A DNA stretch of 35,442 nt. Source: Peptococcaceae bacterium 1109. Lineage in GTDB: Bacteria > Bacillota > Limnochordia > Darwinibacteriales > Darwinibacteriaceae. The position numbers were made by a program, and so were the translations under genes. The stretch spans positions 75,408 through 110,849 of the forward strand of contig LDJB01000003.1 in assembly GCA_001028815.1 (NCBI GenBank). Reading direction: 5' to 3'. The notes beneath the pieces are model-generated. The model had not been told where the DNA came from and searched no databases. It worked only from the letters and a program-made list of their open reading frames with translations. The first letter of the stretch is position 1; every line of letters begins with the position of its first letter. Of this stretch, positions 8,785 to 25,127 are shown piece by piece.

Positions 8785-11016
8785 TTACTTCCTCACTTTG
8801 ATCTCAACTGTCTCACTCTCAAACCGCGGCGTTCTGCCCCTCAGGGTAATGACCCCTTCTTCCTCAGCTGCCCTCACCCACGTGGCAATAGCCCCGCCAA
8901 TTAAGGCCGTCTGCCTAGGCCCGATGATGGCCCCCGGCCCTTCCAGCTCGAACTCGATGGCATCGGTAAGGTATGGCAGGGGGTTCCCTGCTTGATCAAC
9001 TACCATGAACACCACCCGCGTGGCATCCATGCCATCTGCCTTGAGTTCTAGATCGTCGGGGATAGTGACCAGCTTGGTGGCTACCGGAGCCGCAGCATAC
9101 TTCTTGCTGATTACCTCTTCCCCATCCACGATCCCAATAAACTCCCCATCAAACCACTCCAGGCCCCACTCCCCGATTTCCATCTGATCAATCACTACCG
9201 GCGGGTAAGGCACCCCAGGATAACGGGCCTTGGCCGGGTAGAACTCACCCACATCCCGTCCTTGGAGCTTAATCCGCACTTTATCACAGTTGGTGAAGAT
9301 TACCAGAGGCAAGACTCCCCCGATGCTGCGGTCGCCACGGCTCCAGCGGGTTGCAGGCTCTAGCACGGGCCGTACATGTGGATCCACTTGGCTGCCGTAG
9401 AAGTGGGCCGCGTACTTGGGGATGCGGAACATATCCATCACCCCGTGGTAGCAGATGCGGTCCCCTGAACCAAAGTCGTAGTGGGTGTTGTAGTCAAAGG
9501 CGCACCACCCAAAGGCACCGGCGATGTGGGGATCAAGGCCCGCCTGGTTGTGTACCCTAAGATGCCTTAAGGCATGCTCAACAACGCGCTCTTCTTGGTC
9601 AAAGCGCTTCGTGGGGAACATGTGCCCGTTAAACTCCGTCACCATGTAGGGCACATAGCCTGCGGTCTTAGTCACTTGCTTCGGATCCCTTAAGACCAGC
9701 TCCCCACCGCTGTGGATGAAGTCGTTCATGGTGTAGACGTCTTCCAGGAAATCGCTGCCTTCGATATACCGCACCCCTGCAGTCTGGCGGGTGGGGTCAA
9801 GCTCACGGGCGATGCGGTTCGTTTCTTTATAGAATTCATGGCAGTCTTGGGACTCATTGATGCGCACGCCCCATAGGAAAATGGACGGGTGGTTCCAGTC
9901 CCGCTTGATCATCTCCCGGACGTTTTCGCACGCTACTGCCTGCCAGTCTTTATCTCCAATATGCTGCCAGCCAGGGATCTCTTCAAAGACCAACAGGCCA
10001 ATCTCATCGCACCGGTCAAGGAAATGGGGCGACTGGGGATAGTGGCTGGTCCGCACCGCATTCAGGGAAAGCTCGTACTTTAAGATATCTGCATCCTTGC
10101 GCTGCACTCGGGGAGGCATCGCGTAGCCCACATAGGGGAAGGCCTGGTGGCGGTTGAGGCCCCGGAGCATTACCTTCCTTCCGTTAAGGTAGAACCCATC
10201 TGGCTTAACGACCGCTTCCCGGAATCCGATGCGGGTGAAGCAGCTATCCTTCACCCCCTGGGTATCAGCGATAGACACTTCCACATCATAGAGGTTAGGA
10301 TCGTCAATATCCCACAGCTTGATGCCTGCAAGCTCCGACAGCACAATATCTACAGTGCTCTTCCCCGGCTCTGCCACAGCAATGTGGCTTCCTTCTGCAA
10401 TGAGCTTGCCCTCGTGCAGCAGCTTAACGCCCACCGTAAGGGACTGCTCCTCTGAGGTAGTGTTGGTCAAGAACACAGTGGTTTCCAGTGCCTTCTTCTC
10501 CCCGAGCACAGCTTTCGGTTTGGCGAAGACATTCTCGATATACACCGGGTCCACAATCCGCAGGTATGTATCGCGGTACATCCCCCCGTAGCAGAGGTAG
10601 TCGATGACATAGCCAAAGGGCGGGATGTCCGGCCGCTCCGTGGAATCCACTTTTACCACTAAAGTGTTTTCCCCAGGGGCTAGCCCTGCTGTAAGGTCCA
10701 CCTCAAAGGGAGTATAACCCCCTTTGTGGCTCCCTACGAGCTTGCCGTTGAGGTACACCTCCGCATAAGCCATCACCCCGTCAAAGTCAGCTAAGACACG
10801 TTTCCCTGCCCAGCTGGCCTTGTAGGTAAAGCTTCTGCGGTAACAGGACACAAACTGGTAGTCCCGCTCATCGAAGTAGTTGTATGGGATTTCCTTGTTC
10901 ATATGGGGAAGGTTGACCCGCACAAAACCTTCCGCCCCTACCCCAGGCTGGATGAACTCATCCCGCCACAGAGGCGCAAACTCCCAGCCTTGGTTGAGCA
11001 ATATCTGCTCCCTCAC
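8785..11016 (-). CDS. GH2-family glycosidase (beta-galactosidase/beta-glucuronidase type)
   Basis: Cytoplasmic retaining exo-glycosidase of 743 residues. Layout: jelly-roll sugar-binding domain (1 to about 180), immunoglobulin-like domain (about 185-275), TIM barrel (about 280-580), then C-terminal beta domains. The likely acid/base is Glu388 in GVRINESQD and the nucleophile Glu461 in TEFNGH. GLNRHQ (286-291) and RTSHYPQ (322-328) are family signatures. No signal peptide, so it acts on imported oligosaccharides. It begins at GTG 11016 with AAGGAGG upstream and overlaps the glgA stop by four bases (GTGA), making it the last gene of the glycogen operon, an unusual position for a GH2 enzyme. The exact sugar cannot be assigned; a plain beta-galactosidase is only one possibility. 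Confidence 0.92.
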   Translation of the reverse strand: MREQILLNQGWEFAPLWRDEFIQPGVGAEGFVRVNLPHMNKEIPYNYFDERDYQFVSCYRRSFTYKASWAGKRVLADFDGVMAYAEVYLNGKLVGSHKGGYTPFEVDLTAGLAPGENTLVVKVDSTERPDIPPFGYVIDYLCYGGMYRDTYLRIVDPVYIENVFAKPKAVLGEKKALETTVFLTNTTSEEQSLTVGVKLLHEGKLIAEGSHIAVAEPGKSTVDIVLSELAGIKLWDIDDPNLYDVEVSIADTQGVKDSCFTRIGFREAVVKPDGFYLNGRKVMLRGLNRHQAFPYVGYAMPPRVQRKDADILKYELSLNAVRTSHYPQSPHFLDRCDEIGLLVFEEIPGWQHIGDKDWQAVACENVREMIKRDWNHPSIFLWGVRINESQDCHEFYKETNRIARELDPTRQTAGVRYIEGSDFLEDVYTMNDFIHSGGELVLRDPKQVTKTAGYVPYMVTEFNGHMFPTKRFDQEERVVEHALRHLRVHNQAGLDPHIAGAFGWCAFDYNTHYDFGSGDRICYHGVMDMFRIPKYAAHFYGSQVDPHVRPVLEPATRWSRGDRSIGGVLPLVIFTNCDKVRIKLQGRDVGEFYPAKARYPGVPYPPVVIDQMEIGEWGLEWFDGEFIGIVDGEEVISKKYAAAPVATKLVTIPDDLELKADGMDATRVVFMVVDQAGNPLPYLTDAIEFELEGPGAIIGPRQTALIGGAIATWVRAAEEEGVITLRGRTPRFESETVEIKVRK

Positions 11017-12461
11017 GTCCTGACCTCCTTGGCAAGTACTTGCTCATAGAGCCTAATGTACTCCTCAGCTGATTTATCCCAGCTGAAGTCGGCCTTCATG
11101 GCCCGCTTGACCAGCATGTCCCACACCCCATCAGCCCGGTCGTGGTAAAAACTCACCGCCCGCTCAATGGTGTAGAGCATATCGTGGGCATTGTAGTTTG
11201 CAAAGCTGAAACCATTCCCTTCTCCAGTGGCTTCGTTGTAGGCCACAACTGTATCTTTGAGGCCCCCTGTCTCCCTCACAATGGGGAGAGCGCCGTAGCG
11301 CAGGGCAATCAGCTGGCTTAACCCGCACGGTTCGAAGAGGGAGGGCATGAGAAACAGGTCTGCCGCCGCGTAGACCTGGTGGGCCAGCTCGTTGTTGAAC
11401 ATGATGTTTGCGCTCACCTGCTCAGGATACCTTTCCCCGTAGCGGCGGAAGAAATTCTCATACTGGGCTTCCCCCGTGCCCAAGACCACAAACTGCACCC
11501 CTGTGCGGAGGATTTCCTCCATCACCCGGGCTACAAGGTCCAACCCTTTCTGGGACGCCAGGCGGGTAACCATAGCCAGCAAGGGAACGCTCCCATCCTC
11601 CGGGAGGCCTAGGCGCTCTTGGAGATGCTGTTTATTCCGCATCTTCCGCTTGATGGAGCGGAACGTATAGTTCTCCTTGAGATATGGGTCTGTGTGAGGG
11701 TCCCACTCTTCGTAATCCAGGCCGTTTAAGATCCCGCTCAGCTGGCCTTGGCGCCGGCGGAGCACCCCTTCTAGGTTTGCCCCGTAGAAAGGATCCTGGA
11801 TTTCCTGGGCATAGGTGGGGCTGACGGTGGTGATCCAGTCGGAGTAGTTCAGCCCGCCCTTCATAAAGCTTACCTGGTCGTGGAACTCGATCCCATCGGG
11901 GTGGAAGTGCTCCCACCCTATATCCAGCACGTCTCCAAGCATGCTCTTGGAGAAGACCCCTTGGTACTGGAGGTTGTGGATGGTGAAGACGGTTTTGATC
12001 CAATCGTAAAAGGGCTGATTGCGGTACTGCTTCAGCATGACAGGGATCATGCCTGTGTGCCAATCGTGGCAGTGGATAATATCCGGTTTCAGCCCCACTG
12101 CAGGCAGGCACTCAAGCACTGCCCGGCAGAAGAACGCGTAGCGCTCCCCATCATCGAAGAAGCCGTAGGTGCCTGGGCGTTTGAAGTAGCCTTCGTTATC
12201 TACGAAGTAGAAATCTACCCCTTGGTGCTCCAGCTTCAAAATGCCGCAGTATTGGTTTCGCCAGCCAAGGTGGACCGAGAAGCGGTAAACCAGCTCCATC
12301 TGCTGTTTGTACATTTCGGGAACATCGCTGTAGAGGGGCAGGAACACAGCGGTCTCCACGCCCTGCTTCACCAAGTACTTGGGCAGTGCTCCAATGACGT
12401 CCGCGAGCCCGCCCGTTTTGGCAAAGGGCACCCCCTCTGCAGCTGCAAATAGCACTTTCAA
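11013..12461 (-). CDS. glgA: Glycogen synthase (ADP-glucose)
   Basis: GT5 glycosyltransferase that extends alpha-1,4-glucan from ADP-glucose. The 482-residue product starts MKVLFAAAEGVPFAKTGGLA, with the ADP-glucose-binding KTGGL at Lys15, and carries IIHCHDWHTG and, near the C-terminus, FEPCGLSQLIALRYGALPIV with the conserved catalytic-loop glutamate. The start is a TTG at 12461, 8 bases after AGGAGG and in line with the usual GlgA N-terminus. A GTG at 12470 overlaps the ribosome-binding site and is rejected. It lies 12 bases after glgD and overlaps the GH2 gene. Confidence 0.97.
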   Translation of the reverse strand: MKVLFAAAEGVPFAKTGGLADVIGALPKYLVKQGVETAVFLPLYSDVPEMYKQQMELVYRFSVHLGWRNQYCGILKLEHQGVDFYFVDNEGYFKRPGTYGFFDDGERYAFFCRAVLECLPAVGLKPDIIHCHDWHTGMIPVMLKQYRNQPFYDWIKTVFTIHNLQYQGVFSKSMLGDVLDIGWEHFHPDGIEFHDQVSFMKGGLNYSDWITTVSPTYAQEIQDPFYGANLEGVLRRRQGQLSGILNGLDYEEWDPHTDPYLKENYTFRSIKRKMRNKQHLQERLGLPEDGSVPLLAMVTRLASQKGLDLVARVMEEILRTGVQFVVLGTGEAQYENFFRRYGERYPEQVSANIMFNNELAHQVYAAADLFLMPSLFEPCGLSQLIALRYGALPIVRETGGLKDTVVAYNEATGEGNGFSFANYNAHDMLYTIERAVSFYHDRADGVWDMLVKRAMKADFSWDKSAEEYIRLYEQVLAKEVRT

Positions 12462-12473
12462 TCTGTCCACCTC

Positions 12474-13592
12474 CTACAGCCTGGCCCGCTTGTGGATGAC
12501 GATGGGGTAGTTGCTGTCCCCGATGAGGTGCTTGCCCTCAGACACCTGCACATCCTTGTCTAAGATTGCGTTTTGGAGGAGCACACCGGGCCCGATCTGG
12601 GACTTCTGCATCACGATGGAGTCCCGCACAACCGCGCCCTTCTGCACATGCACTCCCCGGAAGAGGATACTGTTTTCCACTGTGCCTTCGATAATACAGC
12701 CGTTCGCGATGATGGAGTTGCGCACTTGCGATCCTTCCAGGTAGCGTACGGGGGCTTCATGCTTCACTTTGGTATGAATAAGGCCCGATTTAAAGAACAG
12801 CTCTTGCCAGACTGCTGGGTTCAATAGTTCCATGCTGTGCTTGAAGTAGTTCTGCAAGGAGTTTATTTCCCCCACGTATCCCCGGTATGAGTACCCGTAA
12901 ACCCGCAGCTCATCTAGCTTGGGAATGATCCCGTCCCTGAGGAAGTCTTCCTTGCCCCTGGAGGCACAGTAATCGATGATGTCGATGAGCAGCTCTTTGG
13001 ACACGATGTACATGTTCAGGGATGCCTTATCCCCTTTAGGTGTCCGGGGATTGACGGCCATATCCACCACCCGGCTGTCCTCATCGGTGACTACGTTGGT
13101 GTAAGGCGGGGATTTGGCAAGGCCTGCCGTCTCGCTGTACACCACGGTAATATCTGCCTCTTTTGCAAGGTGGTAGTCTAAGACGTCCCGGTAGTTCATG
13201 TTGCAGATCATGTTGCTCCCAGAAATGAGCACATAATCCTGCCTGCTCTTGTAGATGTAGTCCAGGTTGTGGGAGAAGTTAGGGATATCCCCCACCACTC
13301 CGTGCCCCGCTGGGCCGTGGTGGCTTGCTGGTGGAAGCAAGAACAGCCCGTCCCGGCGCCTGTCAAGGTCCCACTCTTTCCCGTTTTTCAAGTGATCCAA
13401 GAGCGCGCCGTACTTATCCGATAAGAGAATACCCACATTGCGGATGCCCGCGTTCACCATATTGGAAAGCGTAAAGTCGATCAAGCGATAACGCCCGCCA
13501 AAGGGAACCGCCGCCAAGGACCGGTGCCGCGTGAGTTCCCGAATCCGTTCGTCCGGCTCATGCAAATTGATGATACCTGCTAAACTGGCCAC
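12474..13592 (-). CDS. glgD: GlgD, regulatory subunit of ADP-glucose pyrophosphorylase
   Basis: Non-catalytic partner of GlgC in Firmicutes. The 372-residue protein keeps the nucleotidyltransferase plus left-handed-helix architecture but lacks catalytic motifs. The GGxGxRL loop of GlgC is replaced by AGIINLHEPDERIREL, and GlgC's [10 protein letters not shown] corresponds here to SGSNMICNMNY, losing the metal-binding Asp. The C-terminal hexapeptide repeats (GSQVRNSIIANGCIIEGTV onward) form the beta-helix. It starts at GTG 13592 with AAGGGGGG upstream and follows glgC by 12 bases. In other Firmicutes the GlgC/GlgD heterotetramer is more active than GlgC alone. Confidence 0.95.
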   Translation of the reverse strand: MASLAGIINLHEPDERIRELTRHRSLAAVPFGGRYRLIDFTLSNMVNAGIRNVGILLSDKYGALLDHLKNGKEWDLDRRRDGLFLLPPASHHGPAGHGVVGDIPNFSHNLDYIYKSRQDYVLISGSNMICNMNYRDVLDYHLAKEADITVVYSETAGLAKSPPYTNVVTDEDSRVVDMAVNPRTPKGDKASLNMYIVSKELLIDIIDYCASRGKEDFLRDGIIPKLDELRVYGYSYRGYVGEINSLQNYFKHSMELLNPAVWQELFFKSGLIHTKVKHEAPVRYLEGSQVRNSIIANGCIIEGTVENSILFRGVHVQKGAVVRDSIVMQKSQIGPGVLLQNAILDKDVQVSEGKHLIGDSNYPIVIHKRARL

Positions 13593-13604
13593 GGCTTACC
13601 CCCC

Positions 13605-14843
13605 TTATGAAATCCGTTCTTCTGGAAACTCCTGCCACCTAGTGACACTTACCACAGCGCCCCTAGCCAGGCGCAGGTTGGCAGGGACTACAATGTTCCC
13701 CTCTACCACAGTGATTCCTGACTCAGTCCGGTCGATCATCATCCAGCCTTCCCCGTCCCTGCAGCCCACATGGGCACCGGCCTTGATCACCGTGTTTTCC
13801 CCGATGATGGCCTTCTCCACCACTGCATTTTCTTCAATGCGGGCGCCAGGCATCACAACCGAGTCCACTACCCGGGCCCCTGGTGCCACATGGGCTCCGA
13901 GGAAGAGCACAGAGTGTTCCACTTCTCCAAACACCGCGCAGCCTTCTGTGACGATGGAGCGGTGCACGTGCGCGGTAGGGCTGATGTACTGCGGCGGGTA
14001 ACTGGGGTTTAAGGCAAAGATCTTCCAGTCCGGATCGTTTAGCTTCAGCGGCGGGTCTTCCTCCAAGAGGTCCATATTGGCCTCCCAGAGGCTGTCAATG
14101 GTGCCCACATCCTTCCAGTAACCGGTGAAGGGGTAGGCGTACATCTTCTCCCCCTGCGCCAGCATGGCAGGAATAACGTTCTTGCCAAAGTCGTGGCTGG
14201 AATCTGGATCCTTTTCATCTGCTTCCAGGTAGCACTTGAGCTTAGCCCAACTGAAAACGTACACTCCCATGGAAGCGAGGTTGTTCTTCGCGTGCTTGGG
14301 CTTTTCCTGGAACTCTGTGATGCGGTTTTCTTCGTCAGTATTCATGATCCCGAAGCGGTGCGTTTCTTCCCAGGGCACCTCAATCACCGCGATTGTCACC
14401 GCGGCCCCCTTCTCTTTGTGAAACCGCAGCATCTGGCTGTAGTCCATCTTGTAGATGTGATCACCGGAGAGGACCAGGACGTACTCTGGATCGTACTGCG
14501 AGATGAAGTCGAAGTTCTGGTAGATGGCGTTGGCTGTCCCTTTATACCAGTCGCCCCCATCTTGGCGGACATAGGGCGGCAGGACAGATACGCCGCCGTG
14601 GTGGCGGTCCAAGTCCCAGGGATTGCCGATCCCGATATACGAGTTGAGCGTCATTGGCTGATACTGCGTGAGTACCCCAACGGTGTCGATGCCCGAATTG
14701 GAGCAGTTGCTGAGCGTGAAGTCGATAATGCGGTACTTACCCCCGAAGGGTACTGCGGGCTTCGCCAGTTTCTTGGTGAGTATCCCTAGCCGGCTGCCTT
14801 GCCCACCAGCAAGGAGCATGGCAATGCATTCTTTCTTAGGCAC
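13605..14843 (-). CDS. glgC: Glucose-1-phosphate adenylyltransferase, catalytic subunit
   Basis: Makes ADP-glucose from glucose 1-phosphate and ATP, the committed step of glycogen synthesis. Visible: [20 protein letters not shown] nucleotide-binding loop, [44 protein letters not shown] with the metal-binding Asp, and C-terminal hexapeptide repeats. The start chosen is GTG 14843 ([14 protein letters not shown]), 7 bases after an AAAGGGGG site; a longer frame to 14876 would put that site within the gene. The product is 412 residues, slightly longer than B. subtilis GlgC. It lies 55 bases after glgB. Confidence 0.96.
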
Positions 14844-14898
14844 ACTCTCCCCCCCTTTGTCCAAATTGCCCGACACTTTCCTACATGGAAGTATTCTC

Positions 14899-16827
14899 CT
14901 ACTTGCTGCTCGGTTCCTGCCGAACCCCCTTCTCCAGGCGGAAGAACACCGCCGCCAAGGGGGGCAGGGTAACCGCGATGCTCTGCCCTTCTTGGTGCCA
15001 GGGGATATCCTCCGCGCCGATGAGCCCGGGGTTTGTTACACCGGAGCCGCCCCACTCTTCCCGGTCACTGTTAAACACCTCTCGGTACGTGCCTAAGGCG
15101 GGCACCCCAATGCGGTAGCCGTGGCGCACCACTGGGGTGAAGTTGACCACCACCACCAAAAGGTCGTCCGTGCTCTTCCCAAGGCGCGCAAAGGCGATGA
15201 CGCTCTGCTCGTTATCGTTGGGATCGATCCACTCAAAGCCTTCCCAGCTGTGATCCTGCTCCCAGAGTGCGGGGCTGTTGCGGTAGAACCAGTTAAGCGC
15301 CTTGGTGTATTCCCACAGGCTCTTGTGCATGGGATAGTCCAGTAGATGCCAGTCCAAGCCCTTTTTGTAATCCCACTCGATGAACTGGCCAAACTCCGCC
15401 CCCATAAAGAGGAGTTTCTTCCCTGGGTGGGCCATCATGTACCCTAGGAAAGCCCTGGTGTTGGCAAACTTCTGCCAATAATCCCCGGGCATTTTATCTA
15501 GAAGAGACTTCTTCCCGTGGACCACCTCATCATGGGAGATAGGCAAGACAAAGTTTTCGCTGAACGCGTACATAAAGGAGAAGGTAACGAGGTTATGGTG
15601 GTGCTTGCGGTAGATGGGGTCTAGCTCCATGTACTCGAGCATGTCATTCATCCAGCCCATGTTCCACTTGTAGTTAAACCCTAGGCCGCCAAGGTACGGG
15701 GGCATAGTGACCATGGGCCAGTCGGTGCTTTCTTCCGCGATCATCAGCGTACCAGGGAAACGGGTTAAGGCCTGTTCGTTTAGCTTCCTGAGGAATGATA
15801 TAGCCTCTAGGTTCTCCCGGCCCCCGTAGGCGTTTGGGTTCCATTCCCCTGGGCGGCGGTCGTAGTCCAGGTAGAGCATGGATGCCACCGCATCGACCCT
15901 GAGCCCGTCGATGTGGTACACATCCAGCCAGAAGAGGGCGTTGGAGATCAGGAAGCTCTGGACTTCAGTTTTCCCCAGATCGAAGTTGCTCGTCCCCCAG
16001 CCCCGGTTATCTGCCCGGCGGGGGTCCGCATACTCGTAGCAGGGCGTCCCGTCAAACATTCGCAGCCCATGATCATCCCGGCAAAAGTGCCCAGGCACCC
16101 AGTCCAAGATCACCCCAATACCCCGCTGGTGGCAGCGATCCACAAAGGCCATGAACTCTTGGGGCGTCCCATAGCGGCTGGTAGCCGCGTAGTAGCCTGT
16201 TACCTGGTACCCCCATGACCCATCAAAGGGGTGCTCCATCACTGGCAAGAGCTCAATGTGGGTATAGCCCAGCTCCGCGACATAATCGATGAGCTCTTCC
16301 GTAAGCTCAGCATAGGTGTAGTACTGCTCAAAGCCCCGGCTTTTCCAGGAACCAAGGTGCACTTCGTAGATGAGGATGGGTTTCTCAAAGGGATTGGTGG
16401 TACGCTTCCTTTCCTGCCACTCATGGTCATTCCAGCGGTACTCCCTCAGGTTGGCCACTTTGGAAGCGGTCTGGGGCTTCACCTCCGCCCAAAAGGCGTA
16501 TGGGTCAGCCTTTAAGAGGAGATCGCCCCGGCCGGTCCTGATCTCATACTTGTAGATGGCCCCTTCTGTGAGGCCGGGAATGAACAGGGCCCAAATGCCC
16601 GACTTAGGCTGCCTCACCATGGGGTGGGCGTCCCCGTTCCAACTGTTGAAATCCCCCACCACCGAAACCCGCTCCGCGTGGGGCGCCCACACTGCAAATC
16701 TTACCCCCGCCTCCCCGTTTTCCTCCACAAGGTGCGCGCCTAGCATGGCATAGCTTTGGTAGTGGGTCCCTTGGTGGAACAGGTAGCGGTCATACTCGCT
16801 GTAAGGGCATGCGATCCAGTTCGGCAT
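14899..16827 (-). CDS. glgB: 1,4-alpha-glucan branching enzyme
   Basis: GH13 subfamily 9 enzyme that introduces alpha-1,6 branches into glycogen. Layout in 642 residues: CBM48-type beta-sandwich (about 35-125, [20 protein letters not shown]), GH13 barrel (about 150-530) and a C-terminal all-beta domain. Catalytic residues visible: nucleophile Asp312 in [12 protein letters not shown], acid/base Glu365 in MIAEEST, transition-state Asp433 in [23 protein letters not shown] is also conserved. It starts at ATG 16827 with AAGGAGG upstream and sits 11 bases after the pullulanase reading frame. The short N-terminus, with no extra CBM48 (N1) domain, is the Bacillus-like type. Confidence 0.97.
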
Positions 16828-16838
16828 AGGGTCCCTCC

Positions 16839-17546
16839 TTAGACATCTGAAATGCTGTTTAGGTCAACCAAAATGCGGCAGCTCCTTCCTGCCACCACCA
16901 CAATTTGCTCTAAGACTTCCCCAAAGGGTTCAAGGGCAGCCCGGGAATCATCTACCACCGTTCCCCACCGCCCTGGGCAAAGCCTCACTGGGACGGGTTT
17001 GGGGTTGGCGTTTAGGATAACAACGATTAGGCCCCAAGGGTCTCCCCCTGCATGGGGGCCCAAGAAATACCCAACCATATTCGGGACAGGCATGGGCAAG
17101 AAGGTAAGCTTGGCTTGAATCTCTGATGCGGACTGGAGGCGAAAGGCAGGGTGAGCCCGTCTCAGGGAAATGAGGCCCTGGGTGTAGTCAAAGATCTCCC
17201 GGTAGCGCACCTTCCTGGGCCAGTCCATGCGGTTGATTCTGTCTGGCGACTGGTAGCTGTTATCTTCGCCGTACTTGGTGCGGGCGAAGTCTTGCCCTCC
17301 GTGGAGAAAAGGGATCCCTTGGCTGGTGAGGACGATGGCGTTGGCAAGCTTCTGCATCTTGATCCGTTCTCCCTCGGGAGCCTCCGGGCAGCTTGCCGCA
17401 AGTTTATCCCACAAGGTGAGGTTGTCGTGGGCTTCTGCGTAGTTAACGCATTGGCTGGGTTCCAATGCCCACGGCCCCCTGCCGTGGTTCGCTTGGCCAT
17501 AGTCTATTTGGGGGTGGTATATCGCGCCCACGATCCCAAACTTCAC
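16839..17546 (-). CDS. pulA: Type I pullulanase, C-terminal fragment (after frameshift)
   Basis: This frame holds the end of the GH13 barrel and the C-terminal beta domain of the pullulanase whose first 717 residues are encoded at 17543-19696. It opens KFGIVGAIYHPQIDYGQ, the continuation expected after the CDDFRDAVKGHVF segment, and includes NYAEAHDNLTLWDKL with the third catalytic aspartate at residue 41. The only start is a GTG overlapping the upstream stop (GTGA at 17543-17546). Coupled reinitiation is possible, but a half-barrel without the other two catalytic residues would not be an enzyme. The break lies in a G-rich tract, so one base is probably missing, in the genome or in the assembly. 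Confidence 0.85.
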   Translation of the reverse strand: MKFGIVGAIYHPQIDYGQANHGRGPWALEPSQCVNYAEAHDNLTLWDKLAASCPEAPEGERIKMQKLANAIVLTSQGIPFLHGGQDFARTKYGEDNSYQSPDRINRMDWPRKVRYREIFDYTQGLISLRRAHPAFRLQSASEIQAKLTFLPMPVPNMVGYFLGPHAGGDPWGLIVVILNANPKPVPVRLCPGRWGTVVDDSRAALEPFGEVLEQIVVVAGRSCRILVDLNSISDV

Positions 17547-19696
17547 CCCTTCCCCCCGCCCCCGCCTTGCACGAAGCCAGGGAGGTGCTGATGGAAGACA
17601 TGCCCCTTCACTGCATCACGGAAGTCATCACAAAAGGAAGCAACGCCTGGGAGTTGGGGCGTATTCTCCTTCACCGCCCTCACGTTCCCCGGCAGGGTGC
17701 TCTCTGCCGCGGCCCACCCTTCTCCGTAGACAATGATGGAAGGGTCGATTTCGTTCAGGGCTTCTCTGACCGCCTGCATGGTGTGAATGTGGTGCAGGCC
17801 CATAAGGTCGAAGCGAAAGCCATCGATTTTATACTCCCTTGCCCAGTAGGTAACGGAATCTACAATAAACTTCCGCACCATGGGCCGCTCATCTGCAAGT
17901 TCGTTCCCGCAGCCGGAGCCGTTGGAAAACAGGCCATCTGGGCGTATGCGGTAGTAGTACCCTGGGACAATATGATTGAAGTTAGAATCCATCCCCTTAG
18001 CGGTGTGGTTGTAGACCACATCCATAATTACCCGGATCCCTGCTTGGTGAAGCCCTTGCACCATCTCCTTAAACTCCCGGATGCGCACAGCGCCGTTGTA
18101 TGGGTCGGTGGCGTAGGACCCTTCGGGGATGTTGTAGTGTAGGGGGTCGTAGCCCCAGTTATACCCCGCCTCAGGCCTGGCCTCATCCACAGTGGCGAAG
18201 TCGAAGACGGGCAAGAGGTGGAGGTGGGTAATCCCAAGCTCCTTCAGGTGAGAAAGGCCCGTCAACACCCCATCGGGCCCCCGGGTATTAGGTTCCACCA
18301 CACCGAGGTACTTGCCTTTATTGGTGATCCCGGAAGCAGGATGGATGGAAAAGTCCCTAACGTGGAGCTCGTAGATGACCGCATCAGTGGGGGAACACTC
18401 AGGGGGCCGCTGGCCCTTCTCCCAGCCTGGCGGATTGGTGCGAGACAGGTCCACCACCATCCCCCGCTCTCCGTTTACACCGCAGGCCCTGGCGTAAGGG
18501 TCCACCACTTCGTATTCGCCGCTGTGGTGCTTAACTACATAGGTGTAGTACCTGCCGTGGAGGTCTCCCCTGATCTTCCCAAGCCAAGTACCTTGCACGT
18601 CCTTGTGCATAGGGTACAGCCTGCCTTCCCCGCCCTGGCCCTGGTCGTAGAGCTTGACGCTCACCTGTTGAGCAGTGGGGGCCCACAAACGGAACGCAGT
18701 GGATTGGGGGGTGTACACAGCACCTAGATCAGAGCCGGTGTATGTAAACAGCCGGGCAAAAGCAGGGCTGTCAAAAACCCGGCCCAGGCCCACCTGGGCC
18801 CGTCCGTGGGTAGGGTGGGTAAGCTCATAGCTGGCCTCAAGATCAAGTGGCCTAAGGGCCACCAGGCGCAGCTTCGTTAAATCCCCGATAGCCATCGCTT
18901 CTCCAAGGGGCTCTTCCTCCCCGTCCCGGAAAAGCCGGAAACCTCCGCCCTTCTGTGAAGACAGCTTCACGGGGATGTTCACTTCCACGGAGATAACCTG
19001 CTCTTCATCGATCTGAGCACGGACGATCTTCGGGGTCTTGTCCACGTCCCGCGGGGATAAGTACACCCGGGCATCGTCCTGCATGAGCCATATGTGGAGG
19101 TTTCCCTCACCATCCAGATGATAGAGGGAAACGAAGCGGTCCCCTTCTCCATCCTTTTCCGCCCAGGGATTACCGCCAACGCTCCGGCGAATGACAAAGC
19201 CCACTTCCTCGGCATCGGTGATCTGGCTGAACTCCACTCTGCCTACAACGCCAAAGGCGTCTGCAGCGGTAAACCCCACTTCCCGCCCGGGCTCATTCCC
19301 ATGCCATACCCACAGGTTCCATCCAGAGTAGTCCTGATCATAGCGATAATAGTGCACCGTCAAGGTGGCTTTGTCAAAAGCGCGCACCTTTGCCCTGAGT
19401 TCTGGGGGTGGCGCAGTGTACACCTTGGGGTCTCCATCCCGGAGCCAGACCTCCCCTTCCCCCTCTACGAAATGCTCAATGTAACGGTCGTGGGGGACAT
19501 CTTTTTGCCATGTATGGGACCGGATGACAAACCCGATGCGCCGGTGTTCCCCAGGGATCTCAGCAGTGGCGATCACGCCAAAATCGTCGCTTTCGGAAAA
19601 TTTTACTACTTGTCCTGCATAGTTCTCCGGCCAGAGCCATACATTCCAATGGGCGTAGTTTTTGTCCCTGCGATGGTAATGAATTCGGATTCGCAT
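17543..19696 (-). CDS. pulA: Type I pullulanase, N-terminal part with two CBM41 domains
   Basis: Debranching enzyme (GH13_14) that hydrolyses alpha-1,6 links in glycogen or pullulan. Layout: two tandem CBM41 glucan-binding domains (about 1-97 and 105-214, both with a WNVWLW / WNLWVW core), a beta linker domain, CBM48 (about 325-400), then the GH13 barrel. The type I signature YNWGYDP is at 512-518, nucleophile Asp630 (DGFRFDLMG), acid/base Glu659 (VYGEGW). The frame ends in GFVQGGGGGKG-stop before the barrel is complete; the rest is in the -1 frame at 16839-17546. No signal peptide, so it acts in the cytoplasm, whereas CBM41 pullulanases are often secreted. It starts at ATG 19696 with GGGGGAGG upstream and is the first gene of the glycogen operon. 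Intact length would be about 950 residues. Confidence 0.92.
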   Translation of the reverse strand: MRIRIHYHRRDKNYAHWNVWLWPENYAGQVVKFSESDDFGVIATAEIPGEHRRIGFVIRSHTWQKDVPHDRYIEHFVEGEGEVWLRDGDPKVYTAPPPELRAKVRAFDKATLTVHYYRYDQDYSGWNLWVWHGNEPGREVGFTAADAFGVVGRVEFSQITDAEEVGFVIRRSVGGNPWAEKDGEGDRFVSLYHLDGEGNLHIWLMQDDARVYLSPRDVDKTPKIVRAQIDEEQVISVEVNIPVKLSSQKGGGFRLFRDGEEEPLGEAMAIGDLTKLRLVALRPLDLEASYELTHPTHGRAQVGLGRVFDSPAFARLFTYTGSDLGAVYTPQSTAFRLWAPTAQQVSVKLYDQGQGGEGRLYPMHKDVQGTWLGKIRGDLHGRYYTYVVKHHSGEYEVVDPYARACGVNGERGMVVDLSRTNPPGWEKGQRPPECSPTDAVIYELHVRDFSIHPASGITNKGKYLGVVEPNTRGPDGVLTGLSHLKELGITHLHLLPVFDFATVDEARPEAGYNWGYDPLHYNIPEGSYATDPYNGAVRIREFKEMVQGLHQAGIRVIMDVVYNHTAKGMDSNFNHIVPGYYYRIRPDGLFSNGSGCGNELADERPMVRKFIVDSVTYWAREYKIDGFRFDLMGLHHIHTMQAVREALNEIDPSIIVYGEGWAAAESTLPGNVRAVKENTPQLPGVASFCDDFRDAVKGHVFHQHLPGFVQGGGGGKG

Positions 19697-19908: not shown

Positions 19909-20370
19909 ATGAAAAGCAGGGCTTTTGCCCTCAGCGTGGCACTGTTCTTGGTTTTGCTCAGCATTCCAGCTGCTGTCTCCGCCCATGGACTCGGGATCAC
20001 CCACGTCCGTTCCCTCAACTTCGGTTACATGCGGGGCGCGCCGGGGACGTACAGCCCTTGGAAAACCGGGTTGGTTATCTTCAAAGCAGACCGCCCTGTA
20101 AAGGTGACGTTCACCGCTGAACCCTTCAGGTATGTGGGCGAAGACTCCACAGAAGGCGGCACTCTAGACGTTACCTATTGGGTCGGGCATAAGCGCAACG
20201 CCTTTAAGCCAGGGACCGCCCTAAAACTTCAGTTTAGCCAGGAACAGCTGGAGAAAGCCAAGGGAGCCATGACACTGGAGGTTTCTGGAGAGGTGAAGAT
20301 TCACGAGATTCACGGCCAACCCGCCGGCCCTTATGAAGGCAGCATCACCGTAACCATCACCGCTGCCTGA
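19909..20370 (+). CDS. Small secreted pilin-like beta-sandwich protein
   Basis: A 153-residue exported protein of unknown function. Signal peptide MKSRAFALSVALFLVLLSIP, cleavage probably after VSA at about residue 26. The mature protein is beta-rich: it has SLNFGYM near its start and ends PYEGSITVTITAA. A G-x-I-T-V-T-I-T-A last strand is common in fimbrial and spore-coat-U-like subunits, so a pilin-like or structural subunit is my reading, not a firm match. No cysteine is visible. The ATG at 19909 is chosen because GGGGAGG lies 8 bases upstream and it begins the signal peptide; the open frame extends back to 19858. First gene of the five-gene secretin locus. Confidence 0.8.
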   Translation: MKSRAFALSVALFLVLLSIPAAVSAHGLGITHVRSLNFGYMRGAPGTYSPWKTGLVIFKADRPVKVTFTAEPFRYVGEDSTEGGTLDVTYWVGHKRNAFKPGTALKLQFSQEQLEKAKGAMTLEVSGEVKIHEIHGQPAGPYEGSITVTITAA

Positions 20371-20454
20371 GGAGGTGATTTCTCGTTAAGGGTCAGGGTG
20401 GAATAAAGCAACAACTAACTCAATCACACCAAAACAGCAAAGGAGGAATAAAAG

Positions 20455-21054
20455 GTGAAGAAGTTTAGCGTGCTATTGCTTATTCTAGCAGCACTCTTGG
20501 CCCTTAATGGCCTGGTGTTTGCGGGAGACGTGGAACCTCAGTTCATGTGGCCGTCCAGGCCGCTCAACGGGATGTACTTTCCTCCGTTCGGGAAGGGCCC
20601 AGAACGCCTGAGAGGCACCTTCCAGGTCATCGGTGATGTTGGGCCCTATGCGGCCATCGACATCAAGAACGATAAGCTCTTCCTCGGTTTCACCGGATAC
20701 GAGAACGAAAGGGAAGAAGCTTACGGGTTCTTCGACATTAAGTCGAACACGAATGTAGGGCTGAGGATGGACTTTCTTCCCCTACGGCAAGGTTTGTTTG
20801 GGGACACGATTAAGACTGATGTGACGGTTTATCGGAGTAGATTGCCACTGTTACCATACTTCCCGCCAATATGGGATGAGGTCCTAAAGGACGATGCACA
20901 TTTGTGGAACATCGGCTTTGACGCAAACAGTTACGTACAAGGCAAGGAACACCGACAGTACATGCTGGTGGTCGGGGGCACCCTCGGCGACATCCACCAT
21001 CAAGCTGAAGGTTCTTACGGCACCAGCATCGTTCTCACCGTCTTTAAGCCGTAG
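20455..21054 (+). CDS. Secreted protein of unknown function, second in the secretin locus
   Basis: A 199-residue exported protein that I do not recognise. The signal peptide MKKFSVLLLILAALLALNGL ends near VFA (about residue 23). The mature chain is rich in Pro, Gly, Phe and Tyr (WPSRPLNGMYFPPFGKGP near the N-terminus) and ends in a hydrophobic strand SYGTSIVLTVFKP, resembling the last strand of the preceding protein and of fimbrial subunits. No cysteines are visible in the mature part. It starts at GTG 20455 with AAAGGAGG upstream. The 84-base gap before it contains a GGAGGTGAT motif right after the previous stop, but no gene that I can support. A second structural subunit is plausible from context only. 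Confidence 0.75.
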   Translation: MKKFSVLLLILAALLALNGLVFAGDVEPQFMWPSRPLNGMYFPPFGKGPERLRGTFQVIGDVGPYAAIDIKNDKLFLGFTGYENEREEAYGFFDIKSNTNVGLRMDFLPLRQGLFGDTIKTDVTVYRSRLPLLPYFPPIWDEVLKDDAHLWNIGFDANSYVQGKEHRQYMLVVGGTLGDIHHQAEGSYGTSIVLTVFKP

Positions 21055-21084
21055 TTGAGTGGCCGGGCCATGCCCGTACACTGA

Positions 21085-21113
21085 GCGGGGCGGGGGCTCT
21101 AGCCCTCCGCCCT
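21085..21113 (+). other. GC-rich hairpin in the secretin-locus leader
   Basis: Between the second and third genes of the locus, GGCGGGGGCT and AGCCCTCCGCC can form a stem of about 11 bp with one bulge and a G-T pair. There is no T-run, so it is not a standard terminator. It might reduce read-through or stabilise the upstream message, separating expression of the two small proteins from the larger components. Confidence 0.4.
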
Positions 21114-21157
21114 CGCACATCGCATAGGGAGTTCCACATTGCGGGGAGGTTGATGAC

Positions 21158-22693
21158 ATGAAACGGGCTCGAAGCTGCATCTGGACGCTATTGCCCGCAA
21201 TACTCTTTTTATTTTTAACCTTCGGACATGTACAAGCCATCGGCGTGCAGCCTCTTGTCTTTGAACTTGATCTGAAACCAGGGGATATTGCACCTTTTGA
21301 GATTATTGCCGGGGCAGATGATACCCAGGAAATCGTGGACGTTACCTTATTCAGCATCGCGCAGGAACGGGATGGCAGCTTAGTCTTTCCGGAAGAAAGC
21401 GATAACCCAGCCCTGGGCTGGGTACGCTTGGACTCTACGCAAGTACTCATTCCCCCTGGGGAACAGAGGCCCATCAAAGGTGAGGTGCACGTCCCCCTTG
21501 ATGCCGCGGGGACGTATGTTGTAGCCGTCATGGTAGAACCACAGTCAGAAGAAACAGTGGGGCAGATAACCTTGCGGGTACGTTACGCTATCCGCATGGT
21601 TATCAACGTCGACCGGCCGGGCCTGCGCCCAGAACTTGTGGTTGACAGTCTCAGCGTTGAAAAAGATGAAACGGGGCTGCCCTATGCCCGGGCAGTGCTG
21701 CGCAACACATCCAATCTACTTTATCCGTTGGCCGCGGAAATGACCATTCGCGACGACAAGCGCGCCTTGCTGGAACGAGTTGTCTTCGGTAACCAAGAAG
21801 AGACCCTTGGGGAAACACCAAGTATGGACGTGTATCCCGGCAGTGAGCTGTGGCTGGATGCCCCCATTACCAGGCCCCTCTTCCCCGGTACCTACGAGTT
21901 GCGCCTCTTCTTGCGCTATGCAGATGGCCGGCAGAAAGTCCACACCGAACAGCTGACCGTCGCTGCGGGGGACTTTGCCTACGCAGCGGACGACCTGTAC
22001 ATCACTCTCGAACCGGAAGTACTCAGTGCAGCGATGCACCTGGGCGGAGCGGACAGCCAAGTCCTTCAGATCACCAACAACTCCAACGAAGCGATCACCG
22101 TATCGCTAAGTGGCCAGGACATCGCACCAGAGTACCCCCGTTCCATCTTCAGTAACCTGACAGTAGCACTTCGAACACCGGAGGCCATGGAGATAGCCCC
22201 CCGCCGCTCAGGCAGGGCAGTGTTCGTAGTACAGGCTCCCCGGGAAGGGGTATCGGGCGGATACTACGGATACGTCACCGCCACTGCCTATTCGCCCGAG
22301 GGCGAATACTTAGGGGAGAAAACCGTGGAGCTGCACGGATTGGTGGGCGAAATCCAGTACAGTGCTGAAATCTTGAGCGTTGTGGTCACTGAGGGGGAAC
22401 CCCTCCTCCTCAGCGCAGTGGTGGAGAATTCTGGTGATGCACATATCACGCCACGGGGCATTGTGTACCTCAAAGACCTGGCGAGTGGGGAGATTATGCG
22501 GAGCATTCAGCTGGAGCTTCAGGAAGGCGTGGATCACATCCTTCCCGGCCAGGCCGGATACCTCATGGCAGATGGGTGGCAGGTACAACCAGGAGAGTAT
22601 GTGGCGGAAATCCATGTCCTGCAAGATAGTGAAGAGATCGGTTTTGCGGAAGAAACTGTATTAGTTCCACAAATACAAGAGGAGGAACGCTAG
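21158..22693 (+). CDS. Exported protein with chaperone-like (PapD/DUF916-like) beta-sandwich domain
   Basis: A 511-residue exported protein. The signal peptide (positively charged MKRARSC, then ILFLFLTF) probably ends after VQA near residue 27. The mature N-terminus (IGVQPLVFELDLKPGD, WVRLDSTQVLIPPGEQRPIK, LRVRYAIRMVINV) has the arrangement of PapD-like periplasmic pilus chaperones and of the DUF916 domain of WxL-interacting proteins: a P-x-x-x-E-L-x-L-x-P-G strand, a W-x-x-L/V-P-P-G segment, then strands leading to an R-x-x-x-x-I-x-V edge. The rest looks like further immunoglobulin-like domains (VLQITNNSNEAITVSL, LLSAVVENSGDAHITP). No C-terminal membrane anchor or sorting signal. ATG 21158 follows GGGGAGG. 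The stop lies 2 bases before the secretin start. A chaperone or scaffold for the small secreted proteins is inferred. Confidence 0.82.
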   Translation: MKRARSCIWTLLPAILFLFLTFGHVQAIGVQPLVFELDLKPGDIAPFEIIAGADDTQEIVDVTLFSIAQERDGSLVFPEESDNPALGWVRLDSTQVLIPPGEQRPIKGEVHVPLDAAGTYVVAVMVEPQSEETVGQITLRVRYAIRMVINVDRPGLRPELVVDSLSVEKDETGLPYARAVLRNTSNLLYPLAAEMTIRDDKRALLERVVFGNQEETLGETPSMDVYPGSELWLDAPITRPLFPGTYELRLFLRYADGRQKVHTEQLTVAAGDFAYAADDLYITLEPEVLSAAMHLGGADSQVLQITNNSNEAITVSLSGQDIAPEYPRSIFSNLTVALRTPEAMEIAPRRSGRAVFVVQAPREGVSGGYYGYVTATAYSPEGEYLGEKTVELHGLVGEIQYSAEILSVVVTEGEPLLLSAVVENSGDAHITPRGIVYLKDLASGEIMRSIQLELQEGVDHILPGQAGYLMADGWQVQPGEYVAEIHVLQDSEEIGFAEETVLVPQIQEEER

Positions 22694-22695
22694 AA

Positions 22696-23898
22696 ATGAG
22701 AAGAAAGCTTGCCGTTTCGGCAAAGGCATTTGCTCTGTTTTTGCTCCTCTGCTGCATCGCTGCTGTTCCAGCCGCAGCAGAGGAACCTACCGTATCGATT
22801 ATGTTTGTGCAAGACGATTTGCGGGATGCGGTTACAGAGCTCATCCTGCAGACAGGGGTCAACATCCTGCTCGACGACTCAGTCTACGGAGTAGTTACCC
22901 TTGACTTGGTGGACGTCCCGCTAGAACAGGCCCTGCGCATGATGGCTTTACCCGGCGGGTATGAAGTGTACAAACTGGACGGCTTCTACTTCATCGGGTC
23001 TGCAAATCCGGAGAGCCTGTCGTTCCGGAGCTTCGTCAAGACGGAAACGTATCACCTGAAGTATGTGTCCCCGGAACAAGTGATGGACGTCATTCCTACT
23101 GTATACCAGCAATACGTGAGAACCGGGCTGTACACCAATGCAGTAACCATCACCGCCCCCCCATCGGTCACAGCCCAAATCCTGGCCATGCTGAAAGAGC
23201 TTGACCAACCCGCTCCCCAGGTCCTGATTCAGGCAGTGGTCACGGAAATCTCCCAGTCTGAGCTGGAAGAATGGGGCGCAGGGTTGTTAAGCTACGACTC
23301 CGCAGGGACGGAGGGCAGCTCTTGGCTTGACAACATCACCTACGAGAGCAGTGTGTTTAACTTCGGCCTGTTTGGCAAGGTGCTCGCCTCTCTCCGCGCC
23401 CTAGAGGCGGAGCAGAAGGCTGAAATCAAAGCCAACCCCAGAGTGATTGCCTCAAGCGGGCAAACCGTTGACCTGTTCTCTGGGGAGACCCACTTCCTCG
23501 CTTTATCCTCGGGAACATCGGAGCGGTTGGAGGAGATTAACGTGGGAGTGTCCCTAAACGTCACTCCCAGGGTTGTGGAGGGCAACCTCCTGCGGCTCAC
23601 CATCGCTCCAGAAGTGAGCCACCTATCTGGGCTGCTCAGGGACAGTAACGGCTTAAGCGTGCGGCGAAGCACCGTGAGCACCGATGTCTATGCAGAGAGT
23701 GGACAAGCCTTACTCCTGGCTGGTATGACGCTGCAAAACGCATCCAGTGTGGACAGCCACGTGCCCATTTTGGGGAAACTGCCCCTCATTCGGTGGTTCT
23801 TCACAGAGAAGTCCGACTCTGACGAGGAGCGAGAACTCCTGATCTTCGTCACCGCTGAGATCTTGCCGGCCGAAGCTGGGGCTGCCGCCCAAAACTAG
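22696..23898 (+). CDS. Small secretin (outer-membrane channel of the type II/IV pilus secretin family)
   Basis: A 400-residue secretin, short for the family (PilQ and GspD are usually 600-700). A signal peptide ends near PAAA-EEP (about residue 28). Domains: STN/N0-like (about 33-101, SIMFVQDDLRDAVTELI and DVPLEQALRMMA), one N1/N3-like ring domain (about 118-172, TYHLKYVSPEQVMDVIP), then the secretin beta-domain (about 172-390), with QVLIQAVVTEIS, IKANPRVIASSGQTVDLFSG, VGVSLNVTPRVVEGNLLRL and the hallmark end VPILGKLPLIRWFF plus ELLIFVTAEILP. Secretins form multimeric outer-membrane gates, so this gene implies an outer membrane. No pilus ATPase, inner-membrane platform or prepilin peptidase is nearby. 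The start follows GAGGAGG and is tightly coupled to the chaperone-like gene. Confidence 0.93.
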   Translation: MRRKLAVSAKAFALFLLLCCIAAVPAAAEEPTVSIMFVQDDLRDAVTELILQTGVNILLDDSVYGVVTLDLVDVPLEQALRMMALPGGYEVYKLDGFYFIGSANPESLSFRSFVKTETYHLKYVSPEQVMDVIPTVYQQYVRTGLYTNAVTITAPPSVTAQILAMLKELDQPAPQVLIQAVVTEISQSELEEWGAGLLSYDSAGTEGSSWLDNITYESSVFNFGLFGKVLASLRALEAEQKAEIKANPRVIASSGQTVDLFSGETHFLALSSGTSERLEEINVGVSLNVTPRVVEGNLLRLTIAPEVSHLSGLLRDSNGLSVRRSTVSTDVYAESGQALLLAGMTLQNASSVDSHVPILGKLPLIRWFFTEKSDSDEERELLIFVTAEILPAEAGAAAQN

Positions 23899-23909
23899 GG
23901 GGTATTGTA

Positions 23910-25127
23910 ATGCTTAGACTTAAGGCAGGTGTGTTGGCCCTCATCTTGGCACTTAGTCTTTCTGCCGTGAGCTGGGCCCAAGGCTTGCCTCCACAAGTGA
24001 AGTATGAACTGGACATGATCGAATTGAAGAGCGCAGAGGCACAGGCTGTGTTCTTGGAATCCTTCGAGTTCCGCGGCTCTGTGGATGCGGCAGAGTACGC
24101 CTTCCAGATGCTGGCTGGGGGAAATCTCAGCGGCATCCTCGGGGGGCTGCCTTTCCGCTTGAGCGCAGAGTCCCGTGAGGAACACAACATGCGCCTCGCG
24201 GCCCCTGCGGTCATTGTCTCCCTGGGAAAAACCGCCTCCCTCAGGGTAGTGGAAGAAACGTTTGTGCCGGAACTGGCCGCGAGCGGAACAGTGTTCCGCA
24301 CCAGCGGGGTGGAAATTAAGGTAACACCCCTGAGCGTGGATCCAGCTGCAAGGGAAATCACTTCCGCATTTGTGATCCAAACCTATGGAGGGGAAAATGC
24401 CCTACGTACAACGGCCGTTCTGCAAAACGGGGAAAGCCTACCCCTCGCGATTGTGCGTTTCACAGAAACAGGGCAAGATAAAGCAGAAGAACGTTATTTT
24501 GCCGTGTTTGTAAGAGCAGAAATCATCCACGAGCCGCCAGATAGCGCCGCTTTTGCCGTGGGCGGATTAGGCGGCCTTGCGGGGCTGTTGTGGCCAGAGG
24601 AAGTAGTGCTGGACCGGGATAACTACCTTTGGTTTGCCCTTCCTGTAGGGCCTGTAGCCCTGCCTGAGGCAGGGTTTCAGCTGGGGCAGCGCTTCTACGT
24701 ACGGGGCAATCTGCAGCACACGAGCTATTACCCAGCCTCAGTTGCAGGGGGATTCTCCCTCTTGCCGGAAGGCCTAGACCTGGAGATGCAGATTCTCTGG
24801 CGGGACGGTAAAGCCTATGCCGCCCTGGGACTGGGGGATTCCATTGAGGCTCTCCCCGGGATCACCCTCTCTGGAGGATGGCTACCCGCGGTGTTTGAGC
24901 TCGGGGAGTTCCAGCGTCAAAAGTCCCTTTACTGGTTCAATGCCTACTTCGATGGAACACCCTTTAACTTCCGCTTCCGCCTTCTCTCGGGCCTTGAGGA
25001 GGATGCCCCAACCGTGCAGTCGGAAGTGGGGTACGAAATCAAGGAGGATCTAAGCGTGTTTCTAAAACTCTCCATGCATAAAGACCGGGGAAATCGAGTT
25101 TCTGCCGGGCTGCGTTGGAGCTTCTAA
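23910..25127 (+). CDS. Secretin-like segment fused to a putative outer-membrane beta-barrel
   Basis: A 405-residue exported protein (signal peptide to about SWA, residue 23). Residues about 30-205 resemble a secretin beta-domain without its N-terminal ring domains: MRLAAPAVIVSLGKTASLRV, VEIKVTPLSVDPAAREITSA and LQNGESLPLAIVRF echo the NPRV.., V.L.VTP.. and ..GQALLLAG.. blocks of the preceding gene, and YFAVFVRAEII echoes LLIFVTAEIL. Residues about 235-405 alternate in beta-strand fashion with many aromatics (YWFNAYFDGTPFNFRFRLL) and end VSAGLRWSF. A C-terminal Phe with alternating hydrophobic residues is the signal recognised by the BAM machinery. It lies 11 bases after the secretin gene. I know of no named family with this layout; it may partner or cap the secretin. 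Confidence 0.78.
   Translation: MLRLKAGVLALILALSLSAVSWAQGLPPQVKYELDMIELKSAEAQAVFLESFEFRGSVDAAEYAFQMLAGGNLSGILGGLPFRLSAESREEHNMRLAAPAVIVSLGKTASLRVVEETFVPELAASGTVFRTSGVEIKVTPLSVDPAAREITSAFVIQTYGGENALRTTAVLQNGESLPLAIVRFTETGQDKAEERYFAVFVRAEIIHEPPDSAAFAVGGLGGLAGLLWPEEVVLDRDNYLWFALPVGPVALPEAGFQLGQRFYVRGNLQHTSYYPASVAGGFSLLPEGLDLEMQILWRDGKAYAALGLGDSIEALPGITLSGGWLPAVFELGEFQRQKSLYWFNAYFDGTPFNFRFRLLSGLEEDAPTVQSEVGYEIKEDLSVFLKLSMHKDRGNRVSAGLRWSF

Follow-up and report, generated by a model that had tools for sequence, protein, structure and literature searches.

A locus of five consecutive genes, A to E, in a 35,442-nucleotide stretch of DNA from Peptococcaceae bacterium 1109 (contig LDJB01000003.1; the whole stretch is called the window here) probably encodes a system by which diderm Firmicutes assemble surface fibres, or surface complexes; it resembles the chaperone-usher systems, with a secretin in the usher's place. 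The chances are judged to be even that it represents a distinct 'chaperone-secretin' pathway of wide occurrence in Limnochordia and Halanaerobiales. In such a pathway, fibres built by donor-strand exchange would thread through the secretin without usher or ATPase, and a secretin-derived barrel protein would act as a dedicated partner. A preliminary description of this DNA had suggested such a minimal chaperone-secretin assembly system, and the suggestion is supported as a hypothesis, short of demonstration, by the conservation of the genes, the folds of C and B and the absence of an usher; those of its proposed checks that were made all came out in its favour. All five plus-strand open reading frames (ORFs) are open between positions 19909 and 25127, and each N-terminus, read from the sequence, has one or more basic residues followed by a hydrophobic stretch and a signal-peptidase site of the A-x-A-like type, the make-up of a Sec-type signal peptide, as expected of the five exported-protein genes first described. 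The titles of sequence relatives name Limnochordia, Halanaerobiales/Halobacteroidaceae and unclassified Bacillota/Clostridia, including the cultured Halanaerobacter jeridensis DSM 23230, and these taxa make a diderm Firmicute the most likely host.

Searches of single window proteins against Pfam and NCBIfam returned secretin matches and a weak DUF4402 match only, with no significant Pfam match for B, C or E. The AlphaFold2 (AF2) model of protein C has a predicted local distance difference test (pLDDT) score of 92.7 (36 homologues). Its first half best matched the Enterococcus WxLIP structure 9i1y_B over residues 1–249 (Z 18.8, 234 residues), followed by the pilus chaperones CfaA, CsuC and FimC (Z 11–13); the comparison with CfaA (4y2o) gave Z 13.2 and a root-mean-square deviation (RMSD) of 3.9 over 190 aligned residues. 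The second half likewise matched chaperones, namely YadV (Z 13.0), CupB2 and Caf1M (Z 12–13). The PapD/DUF916-like front end previously attributed to C is thus borne out by the model. The Pfam family WxLIP_PGBD matched 9 of the 36 homologues, at best with 9.4e-5. The sole match of a PDB sequence search with C was judged to be chance, and the long immunoglobulin (Ig) arrays of ciliary proteins that led the Foldseek E-value ranking were discounted, with RMSD over 20.

Mature residues 102–115 of C, which follow the F strand and form the least certain part of the first-domain model, lead into a perfectly alternating strand at mature residues 110–124. Positions 110, 112, 114, 116, 118, 120, 122 and 124 are hydrophobic in all 36 sequences, and Y116, A117 and R119 are invariant in the 36 homologues. 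In PapD chaperones the donor strand sits at this place, after the F strand of the first domain. Judged by its model, C is a periplasmic chaperone-like protein with a donor-like strand at 110–124.

The likely partners of such a protein are the small exported proteins. The AF2 model of B (pLDDT 78.6; 32 sequences including B) ranked the PapG pilin domain first in Foldseek, and most of its best 50 VIA-align rows were chaperone-usher pilins, led by CfaE (Z 9.1) and followed by CfaB, PapG and Csu pilins (Z 9.1–7), over residues ~40–176. On the identity of the small proteins, which the preliminary description left to be checked, the model thus gives B, the one modelled of the two subunits in the window, a chaperone-usher pilin fold. 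Confidence in the B model is low over the first 30 residues and the structural match begins near residue 40, as expected of a free N-terminal extension, and this extension holds a candidate donor strand, 'RGTFQVIGDVGPYA'. An alternating-strand pattern at the N-terminus, written after the sequences had been seen, was present in 78% of the B/P1/S-type small proteins compared with 27% of shuffled segments; among F-type proteins (median 282 aa) the figure was 7%, and among A-type proteins 9%. Protein A, which lacks the alternating N-terminal strand and has a weak DUF4402 match (E 0.016–0.03), belongs to a superfamily of small exported proteins found at the loci. In classical pili the tip adhesin consists of two domains and has no N-terminal strand. 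Because this strand is mostly absent from them too, the A- and F-type proteins are candidate tip or terminal subunits. Comparison of the small proteins with 22 E. coli pilins by hhalign gave no usable homology, and a value of 42% was left unused since the signal peptide and first strand make up most of that alignment.

The same folds allow a different arrangement, a diderm WxL/WxLIP surface complex in which Ig-like proteins bound by C are exported, or anchored on the outer membrane, by the secretin together with E; the complex would be static and would not polymerise into a fibre. WxLIP is the best structural match of C and its profile is found in some of the homologues; moreover, WxLIP and WxL genes cluster in Gram-positives, and a hairpin strand of WxLIP is predicted to complete the WxL sandwich, that is, to insert into the WxL partner (PMC10599100). 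However, the WxL domain (PF13731) was found in none of the 73 genomes of the class, and C shows no C-terminal transmembrane helix by hydropathy (maximum 19-residue value 1.44 in the last 60 aa of the 36 C proteins). B also resembles pilins rather than WxL, and many of the small proteins have an N-terminal strand suited to exchange. Two WxL motifs occur in only 10 of 135 small proteins. Such a static complex is therefore considered unlikely.

The chaperone-secretin reading draws on the recurrence of the gene set. In the family of the window genome C was present in 19 of 23 genomes, and in the class in 55 of 73, with E<1e-100 in 39 of the 55; matches in 47 of 299 genomes sampled across the phylum were in many cases weak or partial; C also occurs in Halanaerobiales. 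In the scan of genome contigs a single-protein query gave no match and an alignment query worked. Wherever the contig extends far enough, C adjoins or is near a short secretin, and the two are usually accompanied by small exported Ig-like proteins and often by E. Among 57 loci (one contig counted twice), the main gene orders are [small]n-C-D-E and small-D-E-[small]n-C. In a second group (loci L128–L135, L138–L139 and L183) C is longer, at about 540–600 aa, and the order is small-C-D; in the inspected loci of this group C-D is followed by an exported protein of 230–310 aa that resembles a small barrel and replaces E. D is absent only from loci cut by contig ends, leaving C and D as the most constant pair. 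Recurrence of the set in dozens of genomes is more than chance, and its retention across genera and orders while the gene order is permuted argues for joint function, which answers the question raised earlier of whether the genes stay together.

This constancy bears on the possibility that the secretin exports other cargo, while C and the small proteins, as structural components of the periplasm or outer membrane, do no more than share an operon with it. In favour of this, secretins are able to pass many substrates. Nevertheless, no pair is as constant across all the loci as C and D, membership survives the changes of order and the pilin and chaperone folds co-occur, so that only a small probability is given to separate functions.

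Two further observations concern the loci themselves. A BTAD-domain transcriptional activator (PF03704, 5.9e-17) lies beside 16 loci (for example L032 6460–7650, L136 4876–6129 and L078 11589–12755) and may regulate the system. The genome that holds the window (G000; 2.7 Mb in 11 contigs, with the window on contig C3) also carries a decaying second copy of the trio on contig C2 at 40110–42800 (L026 8105–10787), consisting of a C gene with an in-frame TAA, a secretin cut to 127 aa and, after it, a gene for a small barrel-like protein; transposase-like fragments are close by.

D has Pfam matches to STN, Secretin_N and Secretin (PF00263, 2.1e-33), and its relatives in the PDB are PilQ, GspD and a phage virion export protein (414-residue chain). 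A tree was built of 75 secretins, 53 with C in the locus and 22 without; most of the loci of these 22 extend only 1.5 kb per side. All 53 C-linked secretins split from the other 22, with a support of 1.0 for an inner node of 52. By sequence, the D-type secretins are a clade apart from those of type IV pilus and type II systems. Comparison of the E family with the secretin family gave an hhalign value of 95.5% (E 1.3e-8) over 182 columns, covering the C-terminal part of D, and E has a weak match to PilQ. The secretin-like part of the hybrid proposed for E is borne out by this profile comparison. The remainder is read as a putative outer-membrane beta-barrel because of its C-terminus: a C-terminal Phe is present in 19 of 39 E homologues, and the window E ends in LRWSF.

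The partners expected of a classical pilus or secretion machine are missing, as first noted for the locus itself. An usher (PF00577) was found in none of the 73 class genomes, with a positive E. coli control, and the locus contains no ATPase, platform protein or prepilin peptidase. Two genomes with the locus, G001 (98% complete) and G010 (97% complete), have neither T2SSF nor T2SSE, and D is their only secretin match. In the closed genomes G065 and G066 the locus is likewise present without T2SSF (PF00482) and with T2SSE (PF00437) matches only below the cut-off, the single secretin of G065 adjoining C. On a different contig the window genome does encode a type IV pilus/type II-like operon, whose secretin is a separate one of a different clade; D was therefore dropped as the missing secretin of this operon, and the situation foreseen earlier, an operon elsewhere lacking only these parts, does not apply. 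Given the four genomes that carry the locus without T2SSF or above-cut-off T2SSE, the separate clade of the operon's secretin and the Sec-type rather than type IV prepilin-type N-termini of the small proteins, there is very little probability that the secretin and chaperone-like protein are accessories of a type IV pilus or type II machine encoded elsewhere, despite the presence of such an operon in the same genome, the convergence of locus L128 on a type IV pilus operon and the prepilin-peptidase-like gene adjoining locus L124.

From these components a course of assembly by the chaperone-secretin system can be proposed; in it we infer that C donates a strand, that the subunits exchange strands and pass through D, that E assists and that a fibre is formed. 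The pilin-like subunits (A, B and relatives), all bearing signal peptides, would cross the inner membrane via Sec. Soluble periplasmic C would then capture them, lending its hydrophobic strand (I110-x-L112-x-V114 onward) to their incomplete Ig fold. The complex would dock at D in the outer membrane with the help of E, a step suggested by their co-conservation. There, the N-terminal strand of one subunit would replace the chaperone strand in its neighbour and free C, with folding energy, not ATP, driving polymerisation and outward movement. The A- and F-type proteins, without an N-terminal strand, might cap or tip the fibre.

Several points weigh against this proposal. In sequence-profile comparison, C had no link to PapD-family chaperones (hhalign 2.8%; 13 from E. 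coli K-12 compared), and B had none to FimA-type pilins (hhalign 0.2%). Without such sequence homology to the E. coli proteins common descent is not shown, and it is in fold and arrangement that the modelled C and B resemble chaperones and pilins. The N-terminal strand pattern, drawn up with the sequences in view, is suggestive only. In the secretin tree, the node that joins the most divergent C-linked secretin to the other 52 has a weak support of 0.47. An usher-like catalytic docking domain was identified in neither D nor E, and the open-access literature yielded no account of fibres encoded by these genes.

The coordinates of the locus are collected below. The close packing described for the last three genes is exact, with gaps of 2 bases between C and D and 11 bases between D and E, and the hairpin that closes the set, as also described, has no T-tract and is a possible terminator. 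A promoter scan found nothing.

Table. Genes and hairpin of the locus (positions in the window)
Feature	Description	Position	Strand	Basis
Gene A	Small exported Ig-like protein, 153 aa	19909..20370	+	ORF
Gene B	Exported pilin-like subunit, 199 aa, GTG start	20455..21054	+	ORF, AF2 model
Gene C	Periplasmic chaperone-like protein, 511 aa, tandem PapD/WxLIP-like modules	21158..22693	+	AF2 model
Gene D	Short secretin, 400 aa, N0/STN + N1 + secretin core	22696..23898	+	Pfam
Gene E	Degenerate secretin core and putative C-terminal outer-membrane beta-barrel, 405 aa	23910..25127	+	hhalign
Hairpin 3' of gene set	Perfect 15-bp stem, 5-base loop	25144..25178	+	Sequence

Adjoining the locus, on the minus strand at 8785–19696, is a run of genes read, from the sequence only, as those of glycogen metabolism: a branching enzyme, an ADP-glucose pyrophosphorylase-like, a glycogen synthase-like and a pullulanase gene. 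The pullulanase-like gene (16839–19696) is split into frames of 717 and 235 aa that overlap by 4 bases, and is a single 952-aa frame in a sister genome (L031).

The folds of the components are known; the system itself is new, and no earlier description of it was found in the open-access literature, the sole text searched. Secretins of type IV filament systems are discussed in a survey of these filaments in diderm Firmicutes (PMC6668835). According to Antunes et al., all Negativicutes and Halanaerobiales have a PilQ homologue (PMC5007114). Some of these PilQ homologues could be D-type secretins. If the chaperone-secretin reading is true, this system may account for secretins that are counted as PilQ in diderm Firmicutes. 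The pathway would unite donor-strand pili, which use an usher, with the secretin pores of ATP-driven type II, type III and type IV pilus machines, two principles so far kept apart, and a secretin would be able to do its work with Sec as the only cytoplasmic motor. It would also form a fold-level bridge from Gram-negative pilus chaperones to Gram-positive WxLIP, with a bearing on the diderm-monoderm transition in Firmicutes.

The locus fails one defining feature of each system that it resembles: the usher, the WxL domain with the transmembrane helix, or the motor. With the chaperone-usher systems (CS1/CFA-I, archaic Csu, Fim/Pap) it shares a PapD-like chaperone fold, an Ig-like pilin fold with an N-terminal extension, an alternating hydrophobic donor-like strand, several different subunits per locus and the lack of an ATPase. 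Unlike them, it has no usher but a secretin and a secretin-barrel hybrid instead, and its chaperone is a tandem four-domain protein without detectable sequence homology to the E. coli members. The WxL/WxLIP (DUF916-DUF3324) clusters of Lactobacillales and Bacillales share the WxLIP fold of C (Z 18.8), the weak WxLIP_PGBD profile matches and beta-rich partners in the same cluster, strand insertion being predicted for WxLIP and WxL. In contrast to these clusters, WxL domain and C-terminal transmembrane helix are absent, C is longer by a second two-domain module, a secretin and barrel are present and the hosts are diderm. The secretin outer-membrane pore is common to type IV pilus and type II secretion systems, whereas the ATPase, platform protein and prepilin peptidase are missing from the locus, T2SSF is missing from genomes that carry it and the subunits are Sec-exported Ig-like proteins. 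The filamentous-phage secretin pIV has the same short N0-N1-secretin architecture and passes a filament. It works with the inner-membrane proteins pI/pXI and exports a virion, whereas the secretin of this locus stands beside a periplasmic chaperone and pilin-like proteins.

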